Below are positions 100 through 10,319 of a DNA stretch of 39,898 nt, one piece after another; the stretch's first letter is position 1, and the number at the start of each line of letters is the position of its first letter. The DNA is from Acidobacteriota bacterium. GTDB taxonomy: Bacteria; Acidobacteriota; Vicinamibacteria; Vicinamibacterales; UBA2999. A model generated the notes under the pieces. It worked only from the letters and a program-made list of their open reading frames with translations. It was not told the origin of the DNA and did not search any database. Location: positions 1 through 39,898 of the forward strand of contig SHUG01000009.1 of the NCBI GenBank assembly GCA_009694735.1, read 5' to 3'. The position numbers and the translations under genes were made by a program.

Positions 100-555
100 C
101 TAACCAACTTCGCCGAGGCGTCGGAAGCCCTTGAGAATCTCGTCGACGACGAACACGTCGGTGAGGAGCGCACGCACGTGAATGGAGGCATTCACGTTGT
201 CGACCATCTGGGAGCTGATGCCGGTCTGTCCCAGCAGCAGGCGCAGGGCCGCCTGGGTCGCCGCCGCGTCGCGTGACAGGACTTCGAGGAAACTGTCGAG
301 AGCGTCTTGCGGGCCCACGCCTAAGGCCTGTGCGCAGTCACGATAGGCACCAGACAGGCCGGTGAGCGCATCGGCAAAGCGTGTCAGGTGATCGCGGAGC
401 TGCCCGCTATTGGCAGCCCCTTGATCGGTGTGCAGACCCTGAGCCGCGTAGCCCAGCATCAGTTCGTAGCCACCCTCGATGGCTTCCGCGCGTCGAGCGA
501 GTTCTTCCCGTGCCGCCTCGGGCGACATTTTTCCAGTGGCCGCCTCAGCCGACAT
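100..555 (-). CDS. Hypothetical protein, last gene of the molybdoenzyme operon
   Basis: A 151-residue protein that I do not recognise. It is Ala/Leu/Asp/Glu-rich and looks almost entirely alpha-helical, with no Cys pair, no signal peptide and no convincing membrane segment. Its ATG lies inside the 3' end of the cytochrome b gene (11 bp overlap), which points to translational coupling and expression with the oxidoreductase. By position it could be an assembly or maturation chaperone, since Tat-exported molybdoenzymes often have a small helical chaperone encoded at the operon end (TorD, NarJ, FdhE types). I see no motif tying it to any of those families, so this role is inference only. It is clearly a coding frame because the opposite frames are shadows. 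Confidence 0.75.
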   Translation of the reverse strand: MSAEAATGKMSPEAAREELARRAEAIEGGYELMLGYAAQGLHTDQGAANSGQLRDHLTRFADALTGLSGAYRDCAQALGVGPQDALDSFLEVLSRDAAATQAALRLLLGQTGISSQMVDNVNASIHVRALLTDVFVVDEILKGFRRLGEVG

Positions 556-1387
556 TGCTACCGGACTTGCTCTCGGCGACCCAGCGATCCGGATCGTGGT
601 GTTCGAGGTATTGGCGACGCGTAATGGTGCCGAAGATCATCGACTTGGTGACCCACAGCTTCTCTGGGCGCAGCGCAAAGTAGATGTGAGCGATGACGAG
701 GCCGACAAAACCGACGCCCATCAACCCGTGCACGACGTAGGTAATGCCCCACGTCGAGTCGGTCAGCATGTACGGATTGCGCTCGACCAGGCCGGTGCGC
801 ACGCGCCACATCATCAGAATGCCGGTGACGATTACCGACAGACCGGCGACGACGACAGCCAGATGGTACAGGCGGTTGCCGAGTGGGTACTTGCCCGGCT
901 TGGGACCCGGCGCGTCAATGCCCACTTCTCGCATCATCTCGGCCTTGAACTCCGGGATGTCTTTCGGTCCCACCCAGATTGACCAGAAATCCAGGACGAA
1001 CGTGGCGTGCACGATGTGGAACATGATCGAGGCGGTGAGCAGGATGCCCGCCATCCAGTGCCACTGCACCCACGCGAACTGCACGCCGACGATCGGCAGG
1101 AAGGCCGTGAGCAGCAACGTCAGCATGCTGAACGCCATCACCCAGTGGAACATCCGCGCCACGAAGCCGTGCCGCAGGACGTTCGCCGGGAGGCCCTTAC
1201 GGTCGGCCTCCATGCGGTCCACTTCCGACGAATCGCGTTTGTGGTGCTGCGAGAACAGCATGTAGCCGCCGTGCGCCACCAGAAACAACAGCCCGCCAAT
1301 GAGCGACGCCCAGAACAGGTCCCACGAGATGTGGGTGAGGACCGAGTCTCCCCACGGGCTGCGCGCCCAACTTACGAGGTTGCCCAT
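545..1387 (-). CDS. Cytochrome b subunit, formate dehydrogenase gamma (FdnI)-like
   Basis: A 280-residue integral membrane protein of the diheme cytochrome b561/FdnI family. Hydrophobic segments lie at about 22-45, 80-100, 110-130, 175-196 and 208-228. Candidate haem-ligand histidines sit in or beside them: RHGF (H73), FHW (H81), QWHW (H110), H124/H127, YHLA (H175), VVHG (H210) and AHIY (H224). The segments YPLGNRLYHL and AHIYFALRPEK resemble the FdnI signature region. In this family the protein passes electrons from a periplasmic partner to the quinone pool. Here it follows the three catalytic subunits in one operon and overlaps the FAD-subunit gene by 16 bp, so it is the likely membrane anchor and electron acceptor for the molybdoenzyme. 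Family assignment is firm; pairing with this enzyme is inferred from the operon. Confidence 0.87.
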   Translation of the reverse strand: MGNLVSWARSPWGDSVLTHISWDLFWASLIGGLLFLVAHGGYMLFSQHHKRDSSEVDRMEADRKGLPANVLRHGFVARMFHWVMAFSMLTLLLTAFLPIVGVQFAWVQWHWMAGILLTASIMFHIVHATFVLDFWSIWVGPKDIPEFKAEMMREVGIDAPGPKPGKYPLGNRLYHLAVVVAGLSVIVTGILMMWRVRTGLVERNPYMLTDSTWGITYVVHGLMGVGFVGLVIAHIYFALRPEKLWVTKSMIFGTITRRQYLEHHDPDRWVAESKSGSNVG

Positions 1388-2385
1388 TCAGCCTCTCCAC
1401 GAATGGCGCGCTTCACTAACGCCTTGACCAGCGGGATCTTGTAGGCGTTGTGACGCAGCGGCACCGCGCCCTGCACGGCGAGGTCGGCAGCCATCTCGGC
1501 CGTCGCCTTGTCGCGCGGCCGGCCCTTGATGGCGGCCTCGACCGCGTCGAGCCGGTACGGCTCAGCGGCGACGCCGTTCACCACCATGCGCGCATCACTA
1601 ATCGTGGCGCCCGACATGTTGAGTGAAGCGGCGATGTTGACGAGCGCGAAGTCCCACACCATGCGGTCGCGCACCTTCTCGAAGTAGTGCGCCTTGCCGG
1701 CCCAGGTGGCCGGAATGCGAATGGCCGTCAGCAGGTCGCCCGGCTGCAGCACGGTGAGCCTGGTGATGTCGATGCCGGGGCCAATGAAGAACTCACGGGC
1801 CGGCACGACGCGCTCCGCTGAGCCGCGCTTGATCACGAATTCCGCGTCGAGCGCGACCAGCGCCGGCGCGGTGTCGGACGGGTTCACCGCCACGCAGCGA
1901 TCGGCATTGAAGATCGCATGTTCGCGGTTCACGGCCGTCGGCGTATCGGCGTAGCAGATGTTGCCGCCCGCGCGATAGCACGGCCAGCCCGCGCGGTAAT
2001 ACCAGCAGCGCGCGTCTTGCGAGATGTTGCCGCCGACGGTGCCCTGGTTGCGAATCTGCGGCGACGCGACAATCAACGCCGCTTCGGCCAGAAGCGGAAA
2101 GCGCTCCTTCACCAGCGGGTTGTTCGCGACCGTCGTCAGCGTGGTCGTGGCGCCAATTTCAAGTCCGCCCGCGGCGTCCTTGATTCCGCGCAGCTCGTCG
2201 ACCATGCCGAGGTCAACGACCACTTTCGGCTTCTTGATGCGATCTTTCAGCCAGTCGAAAGTATCCATCCCGCCGGCCATGACCCAGGCATCAGCGCCAT
2301 GGCGGTCGAGAATACCGAGAGCGTCGCCGACGCTCGCGGGTTGGAAGAGCTCGAATGCCGACATTGCATCGCGAATTGGTGGCAT
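1372..2385 (-). CDS. Xanthine dehydrogenase-family FAD-binding subunit with extra Cys cluster
   Basis: A 337-residue CoxM/XdhB/PaoB-type FAD subunit that carries electrons between the 2Fe-2S subunit and the acceptor. FAD-binding motifs are visible as VMAGGMDTFDWL near residue 35 and TVGGNIS near 116-122. Just after the second motif are four cysteines at about C127, C136, C144 and C164 (spacing CX8CX7CX19C). PaoB and 4-hydroxybenzoyl-CoA reductase HcrB carry a 4Fe-4S cluster in an equivalent insertion, so a 4Fe-4S cluster is likely here too. The second methionine (MSAFELFQPAS, residue 8) matches the usual family N-terminus and may be the true start. The 3' end overlaps the cytochrome b gene by 16 bp, and the molybdopterin gene lies 14 bp upstream. 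Confidence 0.93.
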   Translation of the reverse strand: MPPIRDAMSAFELFQPASVGDALGILDRHGADAWVMAGGMDTFDWLKDRIKKPKVVVDLGMVDELRGIKDAAGGLEIGATTTLTTVANNPLVKERFPLLAEAALIVASPQIRNQGTVGGNISQDARCWYYRAGWPCYRAGGNICYADTPTAVNREHAIFNADRCVAVNPSDTAPALVALDAEFVIKRGSAERVVPAREFFIGPGIDITRLTVLQPGDLLTAIRIPATWAGKAHYFEKVRDRMVWDFALVNIAASLNMSGATISDARMVVNGVAAEPYRLDAVEAAIKGRPRDKATAEMAADLAVQGAVPLRHNAYKIPLVKALVKRAIRGEAEWATS

Positions 2386-2399
2386 TGTTCAGTTCTCCC

Positions 2400-5090
2400 C
2401 TAAATAAACGCCGTCAGCGGCTCGTAAGCCGGTTTGCCGCCATTGGCAAGTGCTTCCATGATGTGTTCAGGCTGCACCGGTGTGCGGCGGATGATGCCGT
2501 CGCCAATCGCGTCGGCCAGCGCGTTCAGTACCGCGCCCGCGGCGGCGCCCACCGACGGCTCGCCGATGCCCTTGGCACCGATCGGATTGGTCGGGTCCGG
2601 CAATTCGACGGCCGCCCACTTGAGCGTGTGCGGAATGTCGAGAATCGTCGGTGGCTTGTTGTGATGCAGCCGCGTCGACAGGCCCGCGCCGTAGTGCGGG
2701 TCGTAGACCAGCTTCTGGCTGCGCACGTGGCCGATGCCCTGGATGCCGCCGCCGTGAATCTGGCCGCCGAGGCTGTTCGGATGGATCACCGTGCCGACGT
2801 CGGCAACGCCCACGTACTCGAGGATGCGCCAGACGCCGGTTTCGACGTCGACTTCAACTTCCGCGAAGCCCGACATGAAGCCGTAGGTCTGACCGTCACG
2901 TGGCAGGTTGTCGCGGGCCACGCCCATCAGCCCGCGGCCCTTGTGCGCGGCCGCGGCGGCCTTGGTCATGGCGTTGAGTTCCTTCGGCACTTCCGTGCCG
3001 TCGTAGATCCCGCCCAGCGCAATCGCGCGCTCAGCCGCCTTCGCCCACGTCAACCGCAGACCGCCACCCTTGCGAATGACGCCCTGCGCGTTGGTGTCGT
3101 ACTGTTCCGGCGTGCCGCCGAAGTCCTTCGCGGCAATCTCGGTCAGCTTCTTCTTCAGATCCATGCCCGTCGCGTAGTTCGCGCGGGTGTGCGCGTACGT
3201 CGTCTGGCTGCCGGCCTGGATCGAACTCCACGGCAGGCCCTTCGCGGTGTTGCCCCAGACCACTTCGCAGTTTTCCCACGGCACGTTGGCGATCTCAGCG
3301 ATCACGCGCGCAGTGTCGACCACCGAGTGCGTGCCGAGATTGCCGATGCCCTGGTGAATTTCGAGCTTGCCGTCGGGACGCAAGACGCACAGGCCGTCCA
3401 CGCCGATCGATCCGGCGGTATAGGCGCCGGTCGCCACGCCAATGCCGCGGACCTTGCTGCCGGTGCGCTTGCCGCTGTTGGCCTTGCGCGCTTCCCAGCC
3501 GAAGATCTCGGCGCCCTTGTCGAGGCACTCCTTGACGAAGCAGCTCGTGACCTTGTTACGCGGCCGGCCGGGCGGCGTGTTGGGCGGATTCAACCCGAAC
3601 TGCGCCGTCCCTTCCGGTGCGTTCAACCTGCGAATGGCGACCTGATCGATGCCGAGCTTGCGGGCCGCCTCGGCCACGACCGGTTCGAACCATACCGACG
3701 ACTGCAATCCGCCCGGGGCGCGCTGCGACGTACCGGGGGGCGTGTTGGTCGCCACCGACAGGCCGCGGAAGCGCATGTTCGGCGCCTGGAACTGCAGCGT
3801 CGCGAGGTTCGCCGAGGTCGCGTGATCGCCCTGGCGGCGATACGGGCCACTCGCCTCGACGATGAAGGTGTCGACCGCCGTGATGCGGCCGTCCTTCTTG
3901 AAGCCCATCTTGACCCAGCCCTGGTAGCCAGGACGGACGCGGCCAATGTAGGTCTCTTCCGCGCGCGAAATGCGCATCATCACCGGGCGCCCGTTCAGCT
4001 TCTTTGACATCAGGGCCGGAATCGCAATGCTCTGCGAACCCGGAATCTTGCTGCCAAATCCACCACCGGTGTACTCGCTGATGAGCACCAGTTCCTCGGG
4101 CTTGATACCGACCCAGCCCGCGACGGCCGCAACGGTGCGCGCGAGGCTCTGCGTCGAGACGTTGATGTGGCACTTGCCGTTCTGCCAATACGCCATCGCC
4201 GACCGCGATTCGAGCGGCTGGTGCGACGTCGTCTGCTGCTGGCTGTCGCGCTCAACGATCAAGTCGGCTTCCGCGAAGCCCTTCTCGATGTCGCCGTAGG
4301 TCAGCGTTTCGGTGGCCTCGGCATTCACGGGGAACTTGCCCGCGTCGACCATGGCCATGTCGGCCGCGGTCCACTTCACCGTCTTCATGCTGGGGCCGAC
4401 GAACACGTTGCCCTGCGTGCGGCCATCGGGCGATCCGGGGCGCATGCCCTCGAGCGGATCGATCACGAACGGCAGCGCCTCGAATTCCACGACGATGCGG
4501 TCGATGGCTTCGGCGGCGAGCTCTTCGCTGTCGGCGGCAATGGCGAGAATCGGCTCACCCTCGTACACGGGCTCGTCGGTGAGCGCGAATTCGGGTGGCA
4601 TGGGTGGAGGCGTCGGTGCGGCAACCGGCGGGGCCGCACCAGCAGCAGGCGCCGGCGCAGCGGGCGCGCCGCCGCCGCCAGGTGCCGCAGCTTGCGGAGC
4701 AGGTGATCCTGCGGGTGTACCAGGTGGCGTGCCGGCCGGGCGTGCCGCAGCGGCTGCGGCCGGCACCGGTCCTGGAGGCGGCGGAGGCGCCGGCAGATCC
4801 TTGGCCGTCAGAATGCCGTGAACCCCGGGCATGGCGAGAGCGGCCGACGCGTCGATGCTAATTACCCTCGCGTGCGGACGCGGGCTGGGCATCAGCTTGA
4901 TGAAGACCATGCCCTCGGCACGGAAGTCTTCGGCGTACTTCGCCTTGCCGGTGACCTTCGCGACCAGGTCGGGCGTGGTGTAGTTGTGGCCAAGGAGCCT
5001 GAACTCCAATTTCTTGGGCGCCTCTCCGGGCGCCGGCTTCGTCGGCGCTACCGGTATAGCCGGGGCAACCGGCTTCTGCTGTTCAGCCAT
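2400..5090 (-). CDS. Xanthine dehydrogenase/aldehyde oxidoreductase-family molybdopterin subunit
   Basis: An 896-residue catalytic subunit. It begins with a Pro/Ala-rich tail (about 1-25), followed by the alpha/beta hammerhead domain and the large molybdopterin cytosine dinucleotide-binding region. GGGFGSK (342-348) and QRAPGG are typical cofactor-contact motifs. GAKGIGEPS places the conserved catalytic glutamate at E844, so the active site looks intact. Residues about 101-167 form a Pro/Ala/Gly-only insertion with almost no charge inside the hammerhead domain, which makes the protein longer than the usual 730-780 residues. It has no signal peptide of its own. By analogy with PaoABC it would be exported as a folded complex with the Tat-tagged Fe-S subunit encoded 3 bp upstream. 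The substrate cannot be read from sequence; aldehydes, purines and N-heterocycles are all possible. Confidence 0.95.
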   Translation of the reverse strand: MAEQQKPVAPAIPVAPTKPAPGEAPKKLEFRLLGHNYTTPDLVAKVTGKAKYAEDFRAEGMVFIKLMPSPRPHARVISIDASAALAMPGVHGILTAKDLPAPPPPPGPVPAAAAAARPAGTPPGTPAGSPAPQAAAPGGGGAPAAPAPAAGAAPPVAAPTPPPMPPEFALTDEPVYEGEPILAIAADSEELAAEAIDRIVVEFEALPFVIDPLEGMRPGSPDGRTQGNVFVGPSMKTVKWTAADMAMVDAGKFPVNAEATETLTYGDIEKGFAEADLIVERDSQQQTTSHQPLESRSAMAYWQNGKCHINVSTQSLARTVAAVAGWVGIKPEELVLISEYTGGGFGSKIPGSQSIAIPALMSKKLNGRPVMMRISRAEETYIGRVRPGYQGWVKMGFKKDGRITAVDTFIVEASGPYRRQGDHATSANLATLQFQAPNMRFRGLSVATNTPPGTSQRAPGGLQSSVWFEPVVAEAARKLGIDQVAIRRLNAPEGTAQFGLNPPNTPPGRPRNKVTSCFVKECLDKGAEIFGWEARKANSGKRTGSKVRGIGVATGAYTAGSIGVDGLCVLRPDGKLEIHQGIGNLGTHSVVDTARVIAEIANVPWENCEVVWGNTAKGLPWSSIQAGSQTTYAHTRANYATGMDLKKKLTEIAAKDFGGTPEQYDTNAQGVIRKGGGLRLTWAKAAERAIALGGIYDGTEVPKELNAMTKAAAAAHKGRGLMGVARDNLPRDGQTYGFMSGFAEVEVDVETGVWRILEYVGVADVGTVIHPNSLGGQIHGGGIQGIGHVRSQKLVYDPHYGAGLSTRLHHNKPPTILDIPHTLKWAAVELPDPTNPIGAKGIGEPSVGAAAGAVLNALADAIGDGIIRRTPVQPEHIMEALANGGKPAYEPLTAFI

Positions 5091-5093
5091 GGT

Positions 5094-5729
5094 TTACGCC
5101 CCCCTTGACTTGTCGGCCGCAACCATCATGCAGTCGAGAATCTTGTTGTAGTCGGCGCACCGGCACAGGTTGCCGGAAATGCCGTGCGCGAGTTGCGCGC
5201 GTGTCGGCGCGGGATTGGTTTTCAGGAAGCCCACCGTGGCCATCACGAAGCCCGGCATGCAGAAGGCGCACTGGAAGCCCTGGCCCTCGACCACCGCCTG
5301 CTGCACCGGGTGCAACGTGCCATCGGGAGCGGCGAGCCCTTCAATGCTCTGGATTTTTTTGCCGCGCACGCTGTGCGTGAGCACCGAACAGGCATACCGC
5401 GGGACATCGTCCACCAGTACCGTGCAGGCGCCACATTCCGCGCGGTCACACCCCAGCTTGGTGCCGGTGAGACCGAGCTTGTAGCGCAGGGTCATGGCGA
5501 GCGTCTCGTTCTTCAGCACATCGACACGGCGCTGCTGGCCGTTGACGTCGAGCGTGATGAGACGTTCGACCGCACCCGCCATGCCATCGTTCTGGCCCAT
5601 GATCGTGGTGCGGAACAGGTATGCCGACGCAGAGACGGTAGCGCCTGCTGCGATCACACCCTTGATGAAATTACGTCGCGAATGCCCAGGTTGAAGACCC
5701 GGTGCGTCTGCCATGCCGTCTTGACTCAT
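5094..5729 (-). CDS. Tat-exported 2Fe-2S subunit of the molybdoenzyme
   Basis: A 211-residue small subunit from the chosen ATG at 5729. Frames extend up to 5837, but the promoter at 5759-5786 lies inside that extension, and a G-rich ribosome-binding stretch precedes 5738 and 5729, so the long version is unlikely. The N-terminus carries a textbook twin-arginine signal, SRRNFIK (residues 17-23), followed by a hydrophobic stretch. Two 2Fe-2S clusters are marked by C94, C99, C102, C114 (plant-ferredoxin type) and C154, C157, C189, C191 (the GNLCRC helical domain). The protein moves electrons from the molybdenum site to the FAD subunit. As in PaoA, its Tat signal would carry the whole complex to the periplasm. 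It is the first gene of the operon. Confidence 0.93.
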   Translation of the reverse strand: MSQDGMADAPGLQPGHSRRNFIKGVIAAGATVSASAYLFRTTIMGQNDGMAGAVERLITLDVNGQQRRVDVLKNETLAMTLRYKLGLTGTKLGCDRAECGACTVLVDDVPRYACSVLTHSVRGKKIQSIEGLAAPDGTLHPVQQAVVEGQGFQCAFCMPGFVMATVGFLKTNPAPTRAQLAHGISGNLCRCADYNKILDCMMVAADKSRGA

Positions 5730-5758
5730 AGAGCCCATCCCCCCCCGAATAATTGCGC

Positions 5759-5837: not shown

Positions 5838-6911
5838 TCAGACCCGCCGGACCCGCCCTTCAGCCGCGCGGGAGAGCCGGTCTTGCACCGCCAACCCCAA
5901 GCCGTCGGTCCCAATCGAGGTCGCCAGAATATGGGTGACGCCGGTTGCATCGAGCGCCCGCAGGGCCGCAAATAGCTCACGGGCCGCCCTGGCAGGATCG
6001 CTCCGGGATCCGTACGGCCGCACTTCCACCCGCCCGGCCGAAGCCAGCCCCGCCAAGTCAGGCGCCAGCGCCAACAAGTCGTCTTCCGGCGCCAGTATGC
6101 CCACACGTGCCCCTTGCGCCGTCAGCGTCCGTGTATCGGCGGCAAGCCGGTGGACCACGCGGTCGACCGCGCCTTCGTACAGGGTCAGCTCCGCCTGCGG
6201 CGCGTAGTGACGCGTGAGTTGGCCGGGCGCGACCTGGGCGACGTGCTCACTACCCTGCTGCGCCACCGCAACGACTTCCGGCACCACCGTTCGGATCTGC
6301 TCGAGCGTGAGTCCGCCCGGGCGCCGCATCACCGGTGGGTCCACGGTGAAGTCGACGATGGTGGATTCGAGTCCGATGTCAGTGGGCCCGCCATCGAGGA
6401 CGATGTCAACGCGGCCGGCCAGATCCGCCAGCACGTGCGCGACCGTCGTCGGACTGGGTCGCGAAAATCGGTTGGCGCTGGGCGCCGCCACCGGTACGCC
6501 GGCCATCTCCAGCAACGCCCGCGCGACCCGGTGCGAGGGCACGCGCAACGCCACACTCGGCAGACCGGCGGTGACGCTGTCGGGCACGGTCAGCTTCTTC
6601 GGCAGAATGATCGTCAGCGGCCCCGCCCAGAACGCGAGGGCGAGCTTGCGCGCGGCCGGCGGCACGTGCGAGGCGCAGAGCGAGAGCTGGCCAATGTGCG
6701 CGAGGTGAACGATCAGCGGATCGGTGGCGGGACGGCCCTTGGCCTCGAAGATTCTGGCGACGGCAGCCGGATCGAGCGCGTTGGCGCCGAGGCCGTAGAC
6801 GGTCTCGGTCGGAAACGCCACCAGCTTGCCGGCGCGCAAGGCTTCGGCCGCTTCGGCGATGACGGCCGGATCAGGATGATCTGGATCGACGCTCAGCACA
6901 CGAGTGGTCAT
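5838..6911 (-). CDS. tsaC: Threonylcarbamoyl-AMP synthase, Sua5 type
   Basis: A 357-residue Sua5/YrdC-family enzyme that makes threonylcarbamoyl-AMP from threonine, bicarbonate and ATP. This is the first step of t6A37 modification of ANN-decoding tRNAs in the cytoplasm. The YrdC domain (about 15-200) shows FPTETVYGLGANA and KGRPATDPLIVH, the nucleotide/threonine pocket. The remaining ~140 residues form the C-terminal Sua5 domain absent from short TsaC proteins. The ATG at 6911 overlaps the stop of the DUF3810 gene (ATGA), so the two are probably co-transcribed. The stop at 5838 abuts the promoter region of the molybdoenzyme operon. Confidence 0.95.
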   Translation of the reverse strand: MTTRVLSVDPDHPDPAVIAEAAEALRAGKLVAFPTETVYGLGANALDPAAVARIFEAKGRPATDPLIVHLAHIGQLSLCASHVPPAARKLALAFWAGPLTIILPKKLTVPDSVTAGLPSVALRVPSHRVARALLEMAGVPVAAPSANRFSRPSPTTVAHVLADLAGRVDIVLDGGPTDIGLESTIVDFTVDPPVMRRPGGLTLEQIRTVVPEVVAVAQQGSEHVAQVAPGQLTRHYAPQAELTLYEGAVDRVVHRLAADTRTLTAQGARVGILAPEDDLLALAPDLAGLASAGRVEVRPYGSRSDPARAARELFAALRALDATGVTHILATSIGTDGLGLAVQDRLSRAAEGRVRRV

Positions 6912-8606: not shown

Positions 8607-8825
8607 AACGTTCCCATTATGCGGCAATCTTCGAGAAGCGCATCTGCCGAATTTCAGCTCCTTCGGGAACAGCTTGTGCCGGACAGCTTCTGAAACACGA
8701 GGATTGGGCAGGCCTGGCTGGGAGCAAATCGATCTTCCATTTGACAGCTAAGGGACGAACTTCCGGCGAATGCGGCAAGGATGCATGACCGCGCTGGTCA
8801 AAACATCGCAGATAATGCACTCTCA

Positions 8826-9497
8826 ATGCGAATCCTGCTAGCGTTGATCTGTGCATCTCTTGTCACCGTCGCCGGCTCAGCTCAGAGTCAGAGGCCCGAT
8901 GACCTGGTGGGAGTCACCTTCGAAGCCCATGTTGTCGGAGTTGTCGACGGCGACACACTCGATATCGTCCGGGCCCACACGAAACGAAAGATCCGAATTC
9001 GACTCGACGGGGTGGATTCACCGGAGACCGGCGAGCCCTTTTCCCAACAGGCGAAGAACTTCAGTCGGGTCTCGGCATTCGACAGGAATGTTAGCGTAGT
9101 TGGCAAAGACGTCGATCGGTATGGACGACTTGTTGCTCGGATTCAAGCCGAGGGAAAGGACCTCAGTGTCGAGGTGGTCGCGGCCGGCCTTGCGTGCCAT
9201 TTCCTTCGCTACTCGTCGGATCCGACACTCGCGAAAGCCGAAGCGAACGCCAGAGCTTCGGGATTGGGTTTCTGGGCGAACGGGGCACCCAAGCCGAGGT
9301 GTGTGGAACTCAATCAGCCCCAGGGCCTCATGTCTGGCGCGGCACAATCGAGCGGCTTCTTTGGAAACGTGAATAGCAAGGTCTACCACGCCCCCACCTG
9401 TAGAAACGCCCATTGCAAAAATTGCACGAAGGAATTTCGAACACGGGAGGAGGCCGAGGAGGCTGGGTACCGAGCCGCCGGCGACTGCCTGCGGTAA
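8826..9497 (+). CDS. Secreted thermonuclease-family protein with C-terminal Cys/His domain
   Basis: A 223-residue staphylococcal nuclease-like protein. It has a signal peptide at about 1-20 (MRILLALICASL, cleavage near GSAQS). The nuclease fold is marked by VDGDT (D41, D43), RIRLDGVDSPE (R59, D64, E67) and DRYGR (R101), matching the calcium-binding and catalytic residues of the family. The last ~45 residues contain YHAPTC, HCKNC and a final Cys, a small putative metal-binding module seen in other extended nucleases. It would cleave DNA or RNA outside the cytoplasm. No Shine-Dalgarno is visible, but GATAAT at 8811-8816 sits 9 nt before the ATG, suggesting a leaderless or near-leaderless mRNA. 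GC is clearly lower than in the flanking genes (33 of 60 bases at 8941-9000), consistent with transfer. Confidence 0.88.
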   Translation: MRILLALICASLVTVAGSAQSQRPDDLVGVTFEAHVVGVVDGDTLDIVRAHTKRKIRIRLDGVDSPETGEPFSQQAKNFSRVSAFDRNVSVVGKDVDRYGRLVARIQAEGKDLSVEVVAAGLACHFLRYSSDPTLAKAEANARASGLGFWANGAPKPRCVELNQPQGLMSGAAQSSGFFGNVNSKVYHAPTCRNAHCKNCTKEFRTREEAEEAGYRAAGDCLR

Positions 9498-9536: not shown

Positions 9537-10039
9537 CGCGCGCACACACTTGAACCGATTTTCATGGATGATAGACGCTAGGGCATTGGTTTGATGCAGC
9601 CCGATGGCGACGGGCATGACGCCTTCTTTCACATGTCAGGGTGACGAACCTACAAGGCTTAGCGCCAGGGTTTCGCGAGTCGTTCCTGACCGTCCGCGCC
9701 CCGAAAAGCATGAGGGCTGAGGAGGTGGCGACACTGCAGTACGCGAGATCACGAGTCAGCGTTCTGCTAACCCTCATTCGGCCGAACCTAAGTGGGCACG
9801 CCGCGAAGCCTACCATCAGCTGGTGGGTCGATCGGCGAATTCGGAGCTTCATCCCGTTCGGCCGCCAGCAACGCGGCCACAGCTCCTCGCTAGTTGCCCG
9901 CCGTTTTGGGTGCCATCTTGTAAACCTCTGGCAGCGAAAATAGGGTGCCCAGAAGGCGCACTCTTCTTACGACTTTTCGTGACTTCCGTTGCAATCTGGT
10001 TGCGAGCCGCGGGTGAAAATTGGCTCGCCAGCCGTAGCT

Positions 10040-10072
10040 TCCACCTACGCGACTTCGTCGCTCCGGTGGACA
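10040..10072. repeat. Palindromic element, intergenic copy
   Basis: Stem TCCACC ... GGTGGA with an inner GCGAC-TTC-GTCGC hairpin, followed by ACA. It has the same architecture as the elements inside der, priA and the helicase gene. Confidence 0.65.
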
Positions 10073-10141
10073 GGCAGGTCCTTCGCATGGCCCCCGAGGA
10101 AGGTTGGCTTGCCAACCGTAGCTCGGTCGCCGAACCACCAG

Positions 10142-10176
10142 CCCACCTTCGCTCGCTTCGCGAGCTACGGTGGGCA
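10142..10176. repeat. Palindromic element, intergenic copy
   Basis: Stem CCCACC ... GGTGGG around an inner TTCGCTCGC / GCGAGC arm, ending in GCA. It lies 28 bp from the tRNA-Pro 3' end and could act in termination or processing of that transcript. Confidence 0.7.
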
Positions 10177-10203
10177 ACCTCCGCCTGAATTCCGAGCGGA
10201 GGT

Positions 10204-10280
10204 TGGTCGGGATGCCGAGATTCGAACTCGGGACCTCCTGCACCCCAAGCAGGCGCGCTACCAGGCTACGCTACATCCCG
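10204..10280 (-). tRNA. tRNA-Pro (anticodon GGG)
   Basis: A complete cloverleaf on the minus strand. The acceptor stem is CGGGATG/CATCCCG, with a D arm, an anticodon stem CCTGC/GCAGG enclosing loop TTGGGGT, and a T arm CCGAG-TTCGAAT-CTCGG. The discriminator base is A and CCA is encoded (10204-10206). The anticodon at 10244-10246 is GGG, reading CCC and CCU. It lies downstream of the merR gene, a neighbourhood also seen in other diderms. Confidence 0.96.
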
Positions 10281-10319
10281 TCCTTACTTGCACTGACGGA
10301 CTTGCGGGGTTGAACGATT

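Follow-up and report, generated by a model that had tools for sequence, protein, structure and literature searches.

A conserved Acidobacteriota gene cluster that places an FdnI-like cytochrome b beside a Tat-tagged enzyme of the xanthine oxidase family

In Escherichia coli, the three subunits of PaoABC (YagTSR) are exported together on the twin-arginine translocation (Tat) signal of PaoA (PMC4273604). The enzyme functions without a cytochrome b, and its terminal electron acceptor has not been identified; NAD is not used, and O2 is used slowly (PMC3958847). We describe herein a five-gene cluster that encodes a comparable trio of subunits together with a diheme cytochrome b and a small protein. 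The cluster occupies positions 100-5729, on the minus strand, of a 39,898-nucleotide window, this being the whole stretch analysed (contig SHUG01000009.1 of assembly GCA_009694735.1, an Acidobacteriota bacterium of the Vicinamibacterales). Like PaoABC, the trio has a Tat signal on the Fe-S subunit only, the cysteines of a [4Fe-4S] cluster in the FAD subunit, and a separate molybdenum cofactor (Moco) subunit with a catalytic Glu. Unlike PaoABC, the cluster adds a cytochrome b and a small protein, runs in the order A-C-B, and contains no PaoD. We consider it probable that the product of the operon is a respiratory complex of the xanthine oxidase family, bound to the membrane and facing the periplasm, and that it reduces menaquinone through its own FdnI-like subunit.

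The cytochrome points to a second system, the formate dehydrogenase-N of E. coli (FdnGHI), with which the locus shares the four heme-ligand histidines, a KDIP...GKY loop, a (here predicted) periplasmic catalytic part, and menaquinone as the expected acceptor. However, the catalytic part is of the xanthine oxidase type rather than the dimethyl sulfoxide reductase type, the locus lacks a multi-cluster subunit that, like FdnH, has a membrane helix, and the cytochrome has an extra N-terminal helix as well as His39, His124 and His127. In NiFe hydrogenase-1, too, an exported oxidoreductase of several subunits is linked to a cytochrome b of PF01292 (HyaC); its catalytic subunits are unrelated. PDB entry 8gy3, which we take to be the membrane-bound aldehyde dehydrogenase of acetic acid bacteria, is presumably a xanthine-oxidase-family enzyme that serves the respiratory chain at the membrane, but with a heme c subunit instead of an FdnI-like cytochrome b. 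4-Hydroxybenzoyl-CoA reductase (4-HBCR) has three subunits, an extra [4Fe-4S] cluster in its FAD subunit, and high profile scores with the present proteins; it is cytoplasmic, fed by ferredoxin, and works without a cytochrome. No account of a cytochrome b in an enzyme of the xanthine oxidase family emerged from a literature search, whose coverage left out most subscription journals and which is thus no proof of absence.

Gene order and conservation of the cluster

An open reading frame check placed the five genes in the order Fe-S, Moco, FAD, cytochrome b and small protein. They are tightly packed, with overlaps of 16 bp between the FAD and cytochrome b genes and 11 bp between the cytochrome b and small genes, and gaps of 3 and 14 bp elsewhere, so that there is no promoter space ahead of the cytochrome b gene. 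The initial annotation had named separate expression of the cytochrome, or its lack of conservation with the trio, as results that would undo its proposal of a respiratory enzyme; the overlap with the FAD gene speaks against the former, and the survey below against the latter. The window starts at the first base of the contig, and the cluster is readable only as far as the small gene. The source genome, that of an acidobacterium of soil or water, is a metagenome-assembled genome (MAG) of 3.25 Mb that is 86% complete.

Conservation was assessed among 396 genomes of the phylum, in which 43 strong cytochrome matches were compared by position with 48 FAD-subunit homologues of at least 57% identity, genes within 1.5 kb on the same strand being counted as linked. 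A cytochrome b gene lies beside 38 of the 48 FAD genes. Conversely, 38 of the 43 cytochromes have an FAD gene beside them by the strict count, and 40 of 43 if two whose FAD gene is in pieces (G116 and G237) are included. These are minimum counts, since scoring was confined to five FAD candidates in each genome. In a set of 79 named loci, the cytochrome stands alone in 14; in the other 65 it is accompanied by the trio, or by whatever part of the trio the contig covers. The named carriers span several orders and classes and include Vicinamibacteria, Terriglobia, Bryobacterales and one Pyrinomonadaceae MAG, and the closest relatives with a name are MAGs of Acidobacteriota, several of which bear the titles Vicinamibacterales, Vicinamibacteria or Luteitalea. 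A few loci titled as other phyla (e.g., Chloroflexi and Cyanobacteria) may reflect doubtful naming of MAGs. In a quick tree of the FAD subunit, the cytochrome label changes six times over 81 rows, and its absences are mostly scattered within the cytochrome-bearing set; two of the ten rows lacking the label are distant homologues of about 35% identity.

Cofactor sites and the proposed electron path

All three catalytic subunits score above the Pfam gathering thresholds for domains of the xanthine oxidase family. The Fe-S subunit (5094-5729; 211 aa) has two [2Fe-2S] clusters of the Fer2/Fer2_2 type (PF00111; PF01799, 2.7e-25) and an N-terminal Tat signal (TAT_signal). Its ATG at 5729 lies behind a G-rich stretch, and an in-frame ATG at 5738 is a possible alternative start. 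The Moco subunit (2400-5090; 896 aa) matches Ald_Xan_dh_C, MoCoBD_1 (3.6e-55) and MoCoBD_2 (1.7e-42), and its catalytic Glu844 (2559-2561) corresponds in the alignment to Glu692 of PaoC, all 57 sequences having Glu at this position. A Pro/Ala-rich, low-complexity insertion in its hammerhead domain (residues ~100-168; 4587-4793), seen in an alignment of relatives, is long mainly in the nearest of them and mostly 13-42 residues elsewhere. The FAD subunit (1372-2385; 337 aa) matches FAD_binding_5 (1.8e-46) and CO_deh_flav_C and contains a PaoB-type [4Fe-4S] loop, whose Cys127, 136, 144 and 164 (codons within 1894-2007) are Cys in PaoB and in all aligned Acidobacteriota homologues. Judged by the presence of both these domains and the Mo-site Glu, the trio is a member of the xanthine oxidase (molybdenum hydroxylase) family.

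Within that family, the trio scores far under the cut-off of every curated NCBIfam equivalog, including those of PaoC (NF041671; 213 versus 1180) and PaoA (NF008514; 126.5 versus 322), and therefore represents an unnamed subfamily. An identity as Mo-Cu CO dehydrogenase (CoxL) was rejected (TIGR02416; 145 versus 991 bits), and so was one as xanthine dehydrogenase, again by the curated cut-off. The resemblance to PaoABC put forward in the initial annotation holds for the Tat-tagged Fe-S subunit, the four cysteines of the FAD subunit and the Moco subunit, but it is a loose one: direct comparison gives identities of 26% (Moco), 34% (FAD) and 40% (Fe-S), and the gene order differs from the A-B-C of E. 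coli paoABC.

The Fe-S subunit carries the Tat motif SRRNFIK (residues 17-23; 5661-5681). A motif of this type is present in 51 of 54 Fe-S homologues, one match being doubtful, and the other three homologues are cut at the N terminus. Together with the packing of the genes, their domains and the conserved cysteines, this goes far beyond chance. No hydrophobic signal segment occurs in the Moco, FAD or small proteins. Given the export of PaoABC on a single Tat signal (PMC4273604), the same route is likely for this trio. The same genome encodes TatC, one Moco chaperone of the XdhC family, and an MqnA/MqnD-type (futalosine-type) menaquinone gene; a search of this 86% complete MAG for MenB gave no match above the cut-off.

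The cytochrome b (545-1387; 280 aa) scores 75.9 bits against a gathering threshold of 30.1 for PF01292 (cytochrome b561/Ni-hydrogenase b-type; 4.4e-21). A profile built on 20 of its homologues matched a single solved chain, that of FdnI (E 7e-4), and FdnI was also the top Foldseek match of its AlphaFold2 model (E 2.5e-5; template-modelling score 0.62 to the target), with HyaC as the second plausible fold match; the mean predicted local distance difference test (pLDDT) value of the model is only moderate, at 71.5. His81 (1145-1147), His110 (1058-1060), His220 (728-730) and His234 (686-688) correspond to FdnI His18, 57, 155 and 169, and all four are invariant in 115 sequences. The match for His110 comes from a local-pair alignment of five sequences, those for the other three also from an alignment of 116. 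We take the FdnI residues to be the heme ligands of structure 1kqf, and predict the same role for their counterparts. Hydropathy and charge predict five helices with the N-terminus outside, a topology in which the heme held by His110 and His220 would lie on the outer side of the membrane, at the docking place of an exported trio; this supports a handover from trio to cytochrome. The formate-dehydrogenase-type cytochrome of the initial annotation is therefore borne out by profile and heme ligands, and by the fold as far as a model of moderate confidence with a fifth helix allows. Nonetheless, the protein is predicted to work like FdnI but is not an FdnI orthologue, and it was not filed as FdnI because it scores 45.5 bits against a cut-off of 115.85 for the FdnI equivalog (TIGR01583). 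The additional first helix and the invariant His39, His124 and His127 also set it apart from FdnI. His39 and His124 are retained even in a cytochrome of 26% identity (locus L128), and the three residues may bind a third heme or form a quinone site.

From these features, and by homology with the systems above, an electron path can be proposed. The three catalytic subunits would acquire their cofactors and assemble in the cytoplasm, after which the Tat signal of the Fe-S subunit would take the whole trio out, the other two subunits travelling as hitchhikers as in PaoABC. Outside, the Moco site with Glu844 would hydroxylate the substrate, most likely an aldehyde, and electrons would pass from Mo through the two [2Fe-2S] clusters to FAD, the [4Fe-4S] cluster and the outer heme (His110/His220). 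From there they would cross the membrane, reach the inner heme (His81/His234) and finally reduce menaquinone on the cytoplasmic side. The direction of this flow we infer from redox chemistry. The opposite direction, in which electrons from quinol would drive a reduction at the Moco subunit as in 4-HBCR, appears very improbable. The FAD and Fe-S subunits do score well against 4-HBCR, which is the nearest by several scores and is itself a reductase that receives its electrons through a [4Fe-4S] cluster of this kind; among relatives of solved structure, the nearest to the Fe-S subunit include 4-HBCR gamma as well as PaoA. However, CoA thioesters do not serve as substrates in the periplasm, and the reducing power of menaquinol is, on established redox knowledge, too low for such chemistry.

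Substrate and the small protein

The best matches of solved structure to the Moco and FAD subunits are aldehyde oxidoreductases and oxidases. Clustering of the neighbourhoods of the 79 loci, on the other hand, revealed only lineage-specific flanks and no shared pathway, and for this reason an aldehyde is favoured as the substrate with only about an even chance. These flanks comprise Sua5 and DUF3810 genes in the nearest relatives and, in another group, genes assigned by eye to MTHFR, an aminotransferase and a 2-hydroxyacid reductase. A plasmid search with the Moco subunit returned only relatives of about 30% identity, with no annotated neighbours hinting at a substrate, and one with the cytochrome b found nothing. 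It is possible, if less probable than an aldehyde, that the substrate is an N-heterocycle or purine-like compound, hydroxylated in the manner of isoquinoline, nicotinate or xanthine, with the electron route unchanged. The top-scoring curated model for the Moco subunit is indeed an XdhA-type xanthine dehydrogenase, albeit far below threshold, and the residue corresponding to Arg457 of the window protein varies between Arg and Ser from lineage to lineage, so that substrates may differ; the structural matches to aldehyde enzymes argue the other way.

The small protein (100-555; 151 aa) was rightly described in the initial annotation as unknown, since it has no Pfam or NCBIfam match. Its AlphaFold2 model (pLDDT 88.5) is an all-helical bundle, for which a search of PDB folds gave no match below E 0.1 and only generic helical bundles overall. 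A motif, SSQ-x2-DN-x-NASIH-x-R-x-LLTD-x-F, is conserved. As it lacks a signal peptide, the protein is predicted to be cytoplasmic, and it probably, though on slender grounds, serves as an assembly factor for the cytochrome-linked form of the enzyme. In all 25 full matches it adjoins the cytochrome b, and it was not found with cytochrome-less trios. This could also fit a structural or accessory subunit on the cytoplasmic face of the cytochrome, a tentative view that we hold to be the weaker one: cytochrome-linked clusters of family f51 are without the small protein, and at L064 and L071 a lipoprotein stands in its place, so that it is dispensable for the cytochrome as such. At L129:5192-6471 (G077), a cytochrome b and the small protein occur together with no FAD gene beside them.

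Upstream of the cluster in the window, about 108 bp away, lies a Sua5-type gene (5838-6911). Farther off, the product of 8781-9497 has a Staphylococcal-nuclease domain and, at its C terminus, an Ada-type zinc-binding match that falls short of the cut-off.

Exceptions, membrane modules and significance

Several observations weigh against the proposed respiratory complex. Ten of the 48 close trio copies are without the cytochrome; eight of these are second copies in genomes that also have a linked one (G213, G285, G269, G289, G191, G277, G041 and G253), so that in such genomes the cytochrome is either not obligatory or shared. In marine Vicinamibacterales (L075-L085, L087, L088 and L090), a paralogue of the cytochrome that retains every heme ligand occurs on its own, between genes assigned by eye as sulfatase-like and MBOAT-like. 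To these must be added the shortfall of the cytochrome against the FdnI equivalog and the moderate confidence of its model, and the physical association of trio and cytochrome is itself deduced from the genes. Perhaps, then, the trio is a soluble periplasmic detoxification enzyme like PaoABC, using several acceptors (soluble carriers and, slowly, O2), and the cytochrome is a general relay from periplasm to quinone that merely shares its operon. The cytochrome-less trios and the solitary paralogue would fit such an arrangement, as does the independence of PaoABC from any cytochrome b (PMC3958847). Nonetheless, we regard it as unlikely in view of the strong two-way linkage over the phylum and the gene overlap, and because the cluster contains no gene for a soluble cytochrome c or ferredoxin.

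The exceptions show a pattern of their own. Directly behind the FAD gene, five cytochrome-less trios (L110, L111, L112, L114 and L134) carry a gene for a conserved lipoprotein, and the same lipoprotein follows the cytochrome in L064 and in the second cluster of L071. This unnamed family, with the motif G-x-WSG-x3-QT-x-SF, is represented at L110:8012-8413, L134:988-1563, L103:1435-1866 and L064 ~9951-10292. Moreover, distant trios occur with a remote cytochrome b in other orders: in L128 it precedes both an MFS-like gene and the trio, and in L130 it stands directly before the Fe-S gene. These lipoprotein swaps and rearranged cytochromes suggest that the membrane modules of the trio are exchangeable. 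A bolder picture, which we hold to be rather doubtful, is that of a phylum-wide set of xanthine-oxidase-family respiratory complexes in Acidobacteriota with interchangeable modules (a lipoprotein by itself, or a cytochrome b paired with either the small protein or the lipoprotein). In these complexes, the extra N-terminal helix of the cytochrome (His39 with His124) would help to bind a third heme or create a new quinone site.

The small helical protein and the lipoprotein define two protein families that have had no name. For one branch of PaoABC-type enzymes, the cluster offers a direct and testable answer to the question of the electron acceptor (for PaoABC, PMC3958847). If the quinone site is cytoplasmic as in FdnI, the enzyme would constitute half of a redox loop and conserve energy. 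If the proposed complex is real, it would be a previously unrecognised feed into the respiratory chain of Acidobacteria from compounds oxidised outside the cytoplasm, encoded by a cluster that has been maintained in several classes of a phylum ranking among the most common in soil.

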